Shown here: positions 10,487 through 13,654 of the stretch, in pieces
Position numbering within the stretch: position 1 is the first letter of the stretch
Layout: every line of letters begins with the position of its first letter
Assembly: GCA_032249735.1 (NCBI GenBank)
Contig: JAVVHA010000001.1
Coordinates: 134,041 to 166,457 of the forward strand
Length of the DNA stretch: 32,417 nt
Direction of reading: 5' to 3'
Source of the DNA: Dehalococcoidia bacterium
Lineage (GTDB): Bacteria > Chloroflexota > Dehalococcoidia > SM23-28-2 > HRBIN24
Program-made: the position numbers and the translations under genes
The notes under the pieces: generated by a model
What the model was told of the DNA's origin: nothing
The model's input: the letters and a program-made list of their open reading frames with translations, nothing else
Database searches by the model: none

Positions 10487-10570
10487 AACCTAACCTCAAA
10501 ACCGGTGCTGGGAGGCTGTCACAAGGCCCTTTGGAGGCTTTTGCTGGCCCTTTCGTCCATCTTCGTCCGC

Positions 10571-10600
10571 ATCATATACAGCAGATCCTCACCGTGTCAA
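10571..10600 (-). promoter_or_regulatory. Sigma-70-type promoter of the rnc-smc-ftsY operon
   Basis: On the minus strand a perfect TTGACA (10595-10600) is followed by an 18-nt spacer and TATGAT (10571-10576, five of six consensus bases). Transcription would start near 10564, about 78 nt before the rnc ATG. It overlaps the control region of the divergent CCA-transferase gene. Confidence 0.65.
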
Positions 10601-10616
10601 GGAGAAGGCCTATAAT
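10588..10616 (+). promoter_or_regulatory. Probable promoter of the tRNA nucleotidyltransferase gene
   Basis: A perfect -10 box TATAAT sits at 10611-10616. The -35 region 17 nt upstream (CTCACC, 10588-10593) is weak. The predicted start near 10623 leaves only about 16 nt before the ATG at 10639. It also means the upstream in-frame ATG at 10615 lies inside the -10 box and cannot be the start. The region interlocks with the minus-strand promoter. Confidence 0.42.
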
Positions 10617-10638
10617 GGCCGTGTTGGGGAACCCGGCC

Positions 10639-11892
10639 ATGGCTAACTTGACACAAAAATTATGGAGTTCCCTGGAGGCTGGGCAGCGTCGTGTCCTCCT
10701 GGTGACCCTAGCCCTTGCCCGCATCCGTGGCCTTTCCGTCTACCTGGTAGGGGGGAGCGTCCGCGATCTCCTGCTGGGCTGCTCGTCCTTGGACCTGGAC
10801 CTGGTGGTGGAGGGCGAGGTATTGGCGCTGGCGCAGGCGGTGGCATGGCGGCTAGGGGGGCATCTGGTGGCCCACCCTTTGTTTGGCACCGCCACCTTGC
10901 GGGGCCCCCACTTCCAGCTGGACTTGGCCACCGCCCGCCGCGAGCGGTATCCCCGTCCTGGCGCCCTGCCCCAGGTGGAGCCGGCCACCATAGAGGAGGA
11001 CCTGGCCCGCCGCGACTTCACCATTAACGCCATGGCCTTGGGCCTCACAGGCCCCCATCAGGGCCGGCTCCTAGACCCCTTCGGTGGGCAGAGGGACCTA
11101 GTCGCCAGGCTGCTGCGGGCCCTCCATGAAGCTACCTTTCGCGACGATGCCACCCGCATCTTGCGCGCCGCCCGTTACGCCGCCCGCTTCTCACTACGCC
11201 TAGAGGAGGGCACCGACGGCTGGTTGCGGCGGGACGTGGCCTACCTGGATACCATCACCGGAGCCCGCCTCCGCCACGAGCTGATGCGCATCCTGGAGGA
11301 GGCCCAACCCGAGAAGGCCCTGGGCCTGCTGCAGGCGTGGGGCGCCCTGGAACATCTTCATCCCTCCCTCCGCCTGGCTCCTCCGCTGATGAAGGCCTTC
11401 CATCGTTTGCGGAGATTACGGCCTTCTTGTCCCTCCACCTTGGCCTACCTTGCCCTCCTCTCTTCCCCCTTATCCAGGGAGGAGGCGGAGGCTCTTGCTG
11501 CCCGGCTGGCCCTCACCCGTCGGGAGCGGGAGGTGGTGGTGACCATGCCCCGTGCCGTGGCCACCTTACCCATCCTGGAGGCGGCAAGACGCCCCAGCCA
11601 GATAGTGGAAGCCCTGGAGCCCCTACCCGAGCCCTGCCTGTGGGCCCTAGCGGCCCTAACACCCCAGCCCCTGGCCAAGAGGCGCGTCTTGAGATATCTT
11701 GAGCGATGGCGGCACCTGCGGCCGGCCCTGCGCCCCCTTCAGCTCGAGGCCCTGGGGGTGCCCAGGGGACCCCGCTTGCAGGAGGCGTTATGTGTCTTGC
11801 GGCAGGCACGACTGGATGGGCGTGTGCGCACCATGGCGGGGGAACGCCGCCTGATCCGAAGCTGGCTCAGGGGTGGAGAAGGCCATGGATAA
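10639..11892 (+). CDS. tRNA nucleotidyltransferase / poly(A) polymerase family protein (CCA- or A-adding)
   Basis: This class II nucleotidyltransferase of about 417 residues adds or repairs the 3' CCA of tRNA. Visible motifs are YLVGGSVRDLLLG (35-47), the metal-binding DLDLV (52-56), and RRDFTINAMALG (125-136), followed by the AARYAARFSLRLEEGT neck region. I chose the ATG at 10639 because a TATAAT box covers the earlier in-frame ATG at 10615, and a GGGGA lies 8 nt upstream. Both tRNA genes in this window already encode CCA, so repair is a likely main role. Whether it adds CCA, CC or A alone cannot be settled from the motifs. Its last codons overlap the start of the small Cys-rich gene behind it. 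Confidence 0.9.
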   Translation: MANLTQKLWSSLEAGQRRVLLVTLALARIRGLSVYLVGGSVRDLLLGCSSLDLDLVVEGEVLALAQAVAWRLGGHLVAHPLFGTATLRGPHFQLDLATARRERYPRPGALPQVEPATIEEDLARRDFTINAMALGLTGPHQGRLLDPFGGQRDLVARLLRALHEATFRDDATRILRAARYAARFSLRLEEGTDGWLRRDVAYLDTITGARLRHELMRILEEAQPEKALGLLQAWGALEHLHPSLRLAPPLMKAFHRLRRLRPSCPSTLAYLALLSSPLSREEAEALAARLALTRREREVVVTMPRAVATLPILEAARRPSQIVEALEPLPEPCLWALAALTPQPLAKRRVLRYLERWRHLRPALRPLQLEALGVPRGPRLQEALCVLRQARLDGRVRTMAGERRLIRSWLRGGEGHG

Positions 11893-12115
11893 TGTACAAA
11901 ACTGCGCGGTCTGTGGCGAGCCTTTAGACGGCATCAACGTGGGCCTATGCAACGGTTGTGGCCTCCCCTTCCATTTCAACACCGAAGCGGAGGCCCACAG
12001 ACCCGAATGCGGACAGGCCTGGCTTCACCCCCAGTATCTCACGGTGGAGTTCGGGTGCTTCATTTGCCTAGGGATGGCCCCCGGCAGGGAGCCGCCCGTG
12101 GGTTTGGGGCACTGA
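11885..12115 (+). CDS. Small Cys-rich zinc-finger-like protein, copy A
   Basis: This is a 76-residue protein of unknown function. It carries CAVC, then eleven residues, then CNGC, the sequence GLPFHFN, a single Cys-Gly and a final CFIC pair. The spacing of three Cys pairs with a His between them suggests a two-zinc treble-clef or RING/PHD-like knuckle. The ATG at 11885 overlaps the stop region of the nucleotidyltransferase gene and is preceded by GGAG six nt upstream. A GTG at 11873 would add four residues. It is a clear paralogue of the ORF starting at 12129, with the same CxxC-x11-CxxC-G-x-PFHF core. Possible RNA or protein binding linked to tRNA processing is only a guess from position. 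Confidence 0.68.
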   Translation: MDNVQNCAVCGEPLDGINVGLCNGCGLPFHFNTEAEAHRPECGQAWLHPQYLTVEFGCFICLGMAPGREPPVGLGH

Positions 12116-12128
12116 GGGATCACCACCC

Positions 12129-12311
12129 ATGCGGTGTAGGGTGTGCCGGTTGCCGGTAGAGGCGGGGGAGGGGATATTCTGCTACCTGTGCGGCCAGCCT
12201 TTCCACTTCGCCCGGCAAAAGGCGTGCGGGCGAGCCCTCCCTAACCCCGCTGCCTGCTGAGGGATGATCTATCTCTGCGCCGTGTGCGCAGAGGAAGTGG
12301 AAGCCGCCTAG
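12129..12311 (+). CDS. Small Cys-rich zinc-finger-like protein, copy B, interrupted by an in-frame TGA
   Basis: From the ATG at 12129, with GAGGGA about nine nt upstream, the frame encodes CRVC, eleven residues, CYLC, then GQPFHFA and ACGRAL, and reaches a TGA at 12258-12260 after 43 codons. The same frame then continues without a break through GMIYLCAVCAEEVEAA to a TAG at 12309-12311. Copy A has its last CxxC at almost the same distance from the shared Cys-Gly (16 residues against 17). The part beyond the TGA is therefore the homologous C-terminus, not chance sequence. Either this is a recent nonsense mutation, a sequencing error or recoding. If the TGA is a plain stop, the product is a 43-residue peptide (12129-12260). 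The final TAG shares CTAG with the convergent M20 stop. Confidence 0.55.
12273..12293 (+). other. Perfect 8-bp hairpin 12 nt after the in-frame TGA
   Basis: CTCTGCGC pairs perfectly with GCGCAGAG around a five-base CGTGT loop, and a G-U pair can extend the stem. The loop begins 20 nt after the last base of the TGA codon and has G at its second position. No T-run follows on either strand, so it is not an intrinsic terminator. Position and loop resemble bacterial SECIS hairpins. The stem also lies in codons for the CAVC motif, so coincidence is possible. Confidence 0.4.
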
Positions 12312-13654
12312 GTGGCGAAGGCCTCCAGCAAGCGGGCTACGGCCTTGGCCCCCCGCAGGAAATCCTCGATGCGGATGTGCTCGTCCGGGGCATGGATGCG
12401 GGAGCCAGGATAGCCCACCCCGAAATCGGCCACCGGCAGGCCCAGCCGCACGAAAGGATAAAGGGGCCCTGTGCCAGCCATAGACGGCACCACCGCCGGC
12501 TCCCGGCCATAGGCCTCCTTTAGGACACGACACACCAAGGCCACAAACGGGTGGTCGATGGGTGTACGGGCGGGGCGCTCCTGGGCCAGCGCTCGCACCT
12601 CCACATCGCCGAAGCCTTCCTCCTGTAGGTGGCGGCGCAACTTCTCCAGAATGTCATAGGGGTCTTGGTCGGGCACCAGTCGGAAGTCGAGCTTGGCCAC
12701 TGCCCTTGCTGGCAGGACAGTCTTGGGGCCGGGCCCCGTATAGCCGGCCAGTAGCCCATCAATGGTGGCCGTGGGCTCAAAGATGTGACGTCGGCGCACC
12801 TCGGCATGAGAGAGCTGGCAGATGAACTCCCTGGCCCCATAGGCACGCAACGTCTCCTCCTCCTCGCTGGGCAAGGAAGCCACTGCCTCCTCCTCAGCCG
12901 GTGTGGGGGGCCGAACATGTTGGTAGAAGCCCGGGATAAGGATACGCTCCTGGGCGTCCTTTATGGATGCTAGGGCCCACACCAGACGCCAGGCGGCGTT
13001 GGGGAGCACCGTACCCCACGAGGAATGGGCGTCGCGGGCCAGAGAGGAGACCTCCAGCTCCACATAGAGCAGCCCCTTGACGCCCAGAGTAACGTATGGG
13101 CGGCCGTCCCACGTGACCCCACCGCCCTCCCATATACAAGCATCGGCCCGCAGCAGCTCGCGGTTTTCCTCCACCCATCTCTCCATATTGGGGCTACCTA
13201 TCTCCTCGTCACCCTCGATACAGAACTTGACACTACACGGCAGGTAGCCCCGCACCTCCCGCCAGGCCCTGACGGCGAACATGCGGGCCAGGATGTTACC
13301 CTTGTTGTCAGAAGCACCGCGGCCGTAGAGACATCCTGCTCGCACCACCGGCTCGAAGGGAGGGGATGACCACTCCTCCAGGGGCTCGGGGGGCTGGACA
13401 TCGTAGTGGTTGTAAAACAATATGGTCTTGGGGGAGCGGCCTTCCTGATATGCCCAGACGACGGGGTTTCCCTCCCCAGGCTTGGGCACCAACTTCACCT
13501 GAAATCCCAGGGCCGCCAGTCGGTCCGCCAAGTAGTGAGCTGTCTCATGGATGGCCCGCCCCTGAGCGCTCACCGAGGGCAAACGCACCAGCTCTTGTAA
13601 CTCCCGCAGGGTCTCATCCAGACGGGCATCTAAGAAGGCTAGGACGTCGTCCAC
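12308..13654 (-). CDS. M20-family metallopeptidase (dipeptidase-like)
   Basis: This is a 448-residue zinc-dependent peptidase or amidohydrolase of the M20/M25/M40 family, probably cytoplasmic because no signal peptide is visible. Metal and catalytic motifs appear in the usual order: NHYDVQPP (82-89), GRGASDNKGN (111-120), EGDEEIGSPN (147-156) and IHAPDEH near the C-terminus. The middle part, with the AHSSWGTVLPN dimerisation-type segment, is intact. The GTG start at 13654 is supported by GGGAGG five nt upstream and lies one base after the GNAT stop, so it belongs to the PHP-GNAT-M20 group. The substrate is probably a dipeptide or N-acyl amino acid, but this cannot be fixed from sequence. Confidence 0.9.
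   Translation of the reverse strand: MDDVLAFLDARLDETLRELQELVRLPSVSAQGRAIHETAHYLADRLAALGFQVKLVPKPGEGNPVVWAYQEGRSPKTILFYNHYDVQPPEPLEEWSSPPFEPVVRAGCLYGRGASDNKGNILARMFAVRAWREVRGYLPCSVKFCIEGDEEIGSPNMERWVEENRELLRADACIWEGGGVTWDGRPYVTLGVKGLLYVELEVSSLARDAHSSWGTVLPNAAWRLVWALASIKDAQERILIPGFYQHVRPPTPAEEEAVASLPSEEEETLRAYGAREFICQLSHAEVRRRHIFEPTATIDGLLAGYTGPGPKTVLPARAVAKLDFRLVPDQDPYDILEKLRRHLQEEGFGDVEVRALAQERPARTPIDHPFVALVCRVLKEAYGREPAVVPSMAGTGPLYPFVRLGLPVADFGVGYPGSRIHAPDEHIRIEDFLRGAKAVARLLEAFAT

Follow-up and report, generated by a model that had tools for sequence, protein, structure and literature searches.

A probable selenocysteine codon in the gene of a small zinc-finger-like protein from a Dehalococcoidia bacterium

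The window analysed here, a stretch of 32,417 nucleotides from a Dehalococcoidia bacterium, contains two small paralogous genes in tandem, copy A and copy B, which are separated by 13 nt and of which the second carries a TGA within its reading frame (Table 1). Copy B is a single gene of 60 codons that begins with the ATG at 12129, and its sole in-frame TGA directly follows a TGC (12255-12257), as an earlier, sequence-only reading of this DNA had it. When the TGA is taken as selenocysteine (Sec), the gene translates into the 60 residues MRCRVCRLPVEAGEGIFCYLCGQPFHFARQKACGRALPNPAACUGMIYLCAVCAEEVEAA, and standard gene calling would shorten this product to 43 amino acids. The C-terminus that is reached through the TGA does align with that of copy A, the final CxxC included. 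The GAGGG lying over the stop codon of copy A furthermore suggests that the two genes may be translationally coupled. The genes on either side are named from their translations and established knowledge; we take the upstream one to be CCA-adding-enzyme-like, and the convergent one is presumably M20-peptidase-like.

Table 1. Features of the copy A-copy B locus, in window coordinates
Feature	Position	Strand	Remarks
Upstream gene, presumably CCA-adding-enzyme-like	10531-11892		
Copy A, paralogous zinc-finger protein, tandem partner	11885-12115	+	Neither Cys nor Sec in the Sec column; A-B order kept in G001, G002, G003 and G193
Copy A-copy B junction, CTGAGGGATCACCACCC	12112-12128	+	GAGGG, Shine-Dalgarno-like, overlaps copy A stop
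Copy B, probable selenoprotein gene	12129-12311	+	One TGA, probably read through; homologues on both sides of the TGA full-length in G001, G002, G003, G046, G049 and G193; model pLDDT 94
UGA codon, probable Sec44, preceded by Cys43	12258-12260	+	Same-column TGA in G001, G049 and G193; TGC in G002, G003 and G046
Putative bacterial SECIS	12261-12293	+	Spacer of 12 nt, 12261-12272; stem 12273-12280 / 12286-12293; loop CGTGT, 12281-12285
TAG, probable true stop of copy B	12309-12311	+	CTAG palindrome in common with the stop of the convergent gene
Convergent gene, presumably M20-peptidase-like	12308-13654	-	

Sixty relatives were searched with the read-through protein, and the orthologue in G001, a genome of the same genus (66% identity), was found to have a single TGA at the identical codon. 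A TGA likewise occupies the codon of copy B in G049, a member of another order, and TGC stands in this column in G002 and G003, both of the window's family, and in G046. Extending the search to 393 genomes of the class brought in the TGA gene of G193, again from another order, so that together with the window's own genome (G000) the same-column TGA occurs in four genomes of three orders. The TGA genes number only these four, all from draft assemblies; searches of 400 genomes across the phylum and of the orders to which G049, G193 and G046 belong yielded no more. Two Cys-type records from a contig scan (HRbin24 and a Chloroflexi MAG) are apparently G003 and G046, and the viral contigs searched contained no relative of copy B. 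Among the orthologues C3, C6, C18, C21, C33, C50 and C53 are invariant, as are G45 and A54, which like the last two of these Cys lie downstream of the TGA, while H26 is Arg in G193 and Cys43 is Ala in G049. Past the TGA, the codon changes between G000 and G001 are distributed over first, second and third positions as 4/1/6. In addition to its TGA-type gene, G049 has a Cys-type paralogue of the same subfamily (L095, G049:C104:80372-80551, AACGVLYVCAPC).

The family as a whole is wider, with matches at E <= 0.001 in 104 of the 393 genomes of the class. The Sec column of 42 distinct family domains holds Cys in 17, TGA in 4 and something else in 21, Leu accounting for 14 of these. The eight rows with Sec or Cys, four of each, form a clade apart from the rest (support 95/93), and at least one Sec/Cys exchange is needed to explain, on these sequences, how the two genera of the window's family differ; it would be an exchange between sister genera. 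The total of such exchanges is uncountable, because the tree rests on 59 columns that leave many inner forks open. Copy A is grouped with paralogues that are without the Cys. That copy A has no Cys at the Sec column had been correctly observed in the sequence-only reading, but it has no weight as an argument against Sec, since copy A is a paralogue and orthologues of copy B have TGC. A distant homologue, L062 (G094:C53:4685-4861), has an in-frame TAG (WSVHA*VNN) outside the Sec column and is probably a pseudogene or an error.

The invisibility of selenium machinery in the window had also been counted against Sec, and this argument falls, since selA, selB, selC and selD are all found elsewhere in the genome, which is 1.73 Mb in size and 99% complete. 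The tRNA-Sec gene at C15:51950-52042 scores 71 bits against a gathering score of 47 and is reported by ARAGORN as tRNA-SeC with anticodon tca. SelB is encoded from C7:38760 on in a 672-aa frame (316 bits, over the cut-off), SelA at C5:13168-14493 (567 bits) and SelD at C14:30080-31003 (371 bits). Indeed, all four are present in 7/7 genomes with the copy B subfamily, that is in G000 and the six orthologue genomes. SelD itself has one in-frame TGA in each of the seven (context CAGUAGK / CGGUASK) and would as such be at least one further customer of Sec decoding in G000, serving as an internal control. The sequence-only reading had made its proposal depend on the presence of selB and selC and on orthologous codons related to Cys, and on both points the outcome favours Sec. 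Two relatives have second tRNA-Sec-like genes over the Rfam cut-off (G002:C9:1177-1268 and G043:C68:12427-12520), and a ribonucleotide reductase-like gene, apparently containing an intein (CVPGDTW...HNCGEQP), lies on C15 of G000 (L009:317-3739), some 6 kb upstream of the tRNA-Sec gene.

The 8-bp stem with a CGTGT loop that had been described 12 nt past the TGA is present, with the arms CTCTGCGC and GCGCAGAG, and it can be drawn with a ninth pair; a folding energy of -15.4 kcal/mol is obtained for the 39 nt that follow the TGA. Published limits for bacterial SECIS elements are a loop of 3-9 nt, a stem of 4-16 bp, a G in the first two loop positions, a distance of 16-37 nt from the UGA and an energy of <= -7.5 kcal/mol (PMC13188914). 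The proposed SECIS layout, with G second in the loop, falls inside these limits in copy B and likewise in the three other TGA genes (4/4), even if a hairpin alone is of low specificity, and the one in G049 is barely inside the energy limit at -7.8, whereas in G193 a different hairpin scores better. If the hairpin is required to have a stem of 6 bp or more and a 5-nt loop, placed at +21 to +25, with G as second loop base, it occurs in 4/4 TGA genes against 0/37 non-TGA members (Fisher p 1e-5). The offset was chosen from G000, and the fair test is therefore that of the other three genes, 3/3 against 0/37, which amounts to about 1 in 9,900 when relatedness is ignored. The stem pairs differ among the TGA genes by one C-G/G-C double change and one A-U/G-U change, and covariation judged by shuffling of these four sequences is not significant (92/500). 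Fold energy is mostly not significant per gene against codon-shuffled controls (P 0.03-0.7), and it is the constant offset alone, not energy, that separates TGA from non-TGA genes. Furthermore, a bSECIS-like hairpin follows 64 of the 693 TGA triplets of the window (9%), 7 of them equally strong, and when the copy B peptide is recoded at random with synonymous codons, 8.5% of trials produce a stem at least as long in that position; gene by gene, an equal stem arises in 9-21% of trials. The stem arises this often because CAxCA written TGC-GC is self-complementary. The hairpin as sole evidence for Sec was rejected as insufficient in view of the window TGAs and the recoding trials; it supports the Sec case and is too weak by itself.

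With Cys substituting for Sec, AlphaFold2 run on seven sequences predicts the read-through protein with a pLDDT of 94 and a pTM of 0.77. Structurally the model comes closest to zinc fingers of the rabphilin/FYVE type (Z 6.8 over 51 residues at 2.0 A; Z 6.6 over 54) and next to PHD fingers, all of these matches lying below the Z of 8 under which a structural match may be a mere common arrangement. The best Foldseek E for the copy B model is 0.03, the sequence profile weakly matches the PHD finger 6lqe (E 7e-4), and the PHD finger family PF00628 scores 17.8 bits and so misses its Pfam gathering score of 24. NCBIfam gave no match to copy B at E<=1 and only two chance matches among the seven members (E 0.08 and 0.55). 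Copy B protein would on this model be a treble-clef zinc finger resembling FYVE and PHD domains, the match of the fold being below certainty. C3, C6, C18, C21, C33, C50 and C53 together with H26 make up a ligand set of the C4-H-C3 type, and a stop at the TGA would delete from the model strand 46-50, the last CxxC and helix 51-59.

We file copy B as a selenoprotein because the machinery is complete, the column holds UGA and Cys, the UGA recurs in other Sec-decoding genomes and the hairpin lies within the bSECIS limits, and taken together these sequence comparisons make it very probable that the UGA is read as selenocysteine. The sequence-only reading had left the choice between Sec recoding, a recent nonsense mutation and an error, and of these the first has gained support. 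A TGA is one base from TGC, and TGC is what the orthologues of two genomes of the same family have, so a pseudogene or a miscalled TGC could be suspected; however, the fact that four genomes from three orders all have a TGA at this one codon makes either very unlikely, as does the observation that the changes past the TGA between G000 and G001 affect mainly third and first codon positions and leave the zinc ligands there in place. It might also be supposed that the TGA is a true stop, the product being of 43 residues and the downstream similarity left over, since TGA is the commonest stop among the genes of the window and the segment past it is short. This seems most improbable, however, since truncation would strip the last CxxC, strand 46-50 and helix 51-59 from a confidently predicted fold and since the tail is conserved in the three other TGA genomes.

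Read-through without Sec, be it by a suppressor tRNA, by programmed read-through or by UGA decoded as Cys or Trp, would likewise account for a product that is conserved whichever residue is inserted. We give this very little credence, since the Sec/Cys exchange, the complete Sec machinery and the SECIS-like hairpin are all predictions of Sec decoding and since general reassignment is incompatible with the TGA stops of other genes. General reassignment, already dismissed in the sequence-only reading because other genes use TGA as a stop, was indeed rejected, the majority of the window's genes, for instance copy A (12113-12115), having TGA as their stop.

Under the Sec reading, the UGA would be decoded by Sec-tRNA (selC), SelB and the downstream hairpin to give a 60-residue protein, predicted to be a FYVE/PHD-like treble-clef zinc finger with a vicinal Cys43-Sec44 just before its last zinc-binding CxxC. 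Two zinc ions would be bound by C3/C6, C18/C21, H26/C33 and C50/C53, and Sec44 would be an addition to this zinc scaffold and no structural ligand, since the other ligands are kept where a relative has Leu, Met, Ser or Gln in its place. Sec replacing Cys usually marks a reactive selenol residue, and for this reason Sec44 would most likely act either in redox switching or in binding soft metals or metalloids. A 2026 review likewise describes Sec in place of Cys as usually a residue with a reacting selenol (PMC13188914), and on balance we lean towards such a selenol in Sec44. That Sec44 is instead a zinc or iron-sulphur ligand could be argued from the Cys-richness of the protein and from the FmdB-family selenoproteins listed with UxxU (PMC13188914), but we regard it as unlikely, since a scaffold whose other Cys and His persist when Leu, Met, Ser or Gln occupies this column needs no such residue. 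A Cys43-Sec44 bond is possible, although not essential or universal, because Cys43 is Ala in G049.

The best reading of these comparisons is that copy B represents a narrowly distributed new selenoprotein family, an earlier description elsewhere being possible. Among known Sec proteins a near kind is FmdB, a small zinc-ribbon protein. Table 1 of PMC13188914 gives the FmdB family (TIGR02605) as a putative regulatory protein that contains Sec, but its UxxU has two Sec, and the copy B family is without a meaningful NCBIfam match. KCU-star (NF033934), SaoC (NF040734), MbdU (NF045648) and CopZ-like form 2 share the vicinal Cys-Sec with copy B. They are however different families, none of whose NCBIfam models matched any copy B family member, and in SaoC and KCU-star the CU motif is C-terminal by name whereas in copy B it is internal. 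The dual CXXC motif small protein OS_HP3 (NF041197) is, like copy B, small, with CxxC motifs and one Sec, but its listed motif is RxU/GxU rather than CU, and NF041197 gave no match at E<=1.

With the bacterial selenoproteins decoded by way of bSECIS and SelB, copy B shares the in-frame UGA, the Cys homologues at the column, the full machinery and a hairpin with G in the second loop position, 20 nt from the UGA. It would differ in its fold, since the review counts 119 prokaryotic selenoprotein families and subfamilies of which most characterised ones have the thioredoxin fold, and no FYVE/PHD-like zinc finger is described among the 119 (PMC13188914). Literature searches for a bacterial FYVE/PHD zinc-finger selenoprotein or a Chloroflexota selenoproteome returned nothing relevant, in a coverage of selenoprotein papers that is incomplete. 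FYVE, rabphilin-type and PHD zinc fingers may share the modelled fold (Z 5-6.6 over 54-56 residues for FYVE domains), but these are eukaryotic domains without Sec, the matches are below Pfam cut-offs for copy B, and a shared fold shows no function. Copy B would bring a zinc-finger scaffold into an inventory dominated by thioredoxin folds and enlarge what is known of the selenoproteins of uncultivated Chloroflexota, and with 60 residues and one Sec it would be small enough for direct expression and testing.

The tandem order of the two copies, kept in G000 and in the four genomes listed in Table 1, suggests that copy A and copy B proteins may work together. A more far-reaching scheme, which we consider improbable, is that Sec acts as a switch, such that a full zinc finger with its Cys-Sec pair is made with selenium and a non-folding 43-residue fragment without it, the A/B pair sensing selenium or redox state and regulating a nucleic acid or protein partner through the zinc-finger surface; if true, bacteria would have a zinc-finger regulator that depends on selenium. 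The arrangement of CCA-transferase, A-B pair and peptidase is kept in G001 and G002, and the peptidase adjoins in G003 too, but these neighbours tell little of function, since they are kept only within the window's family. At 12308-12311, a single CTAG serves as both stop codons of copy B and the convergent gene.
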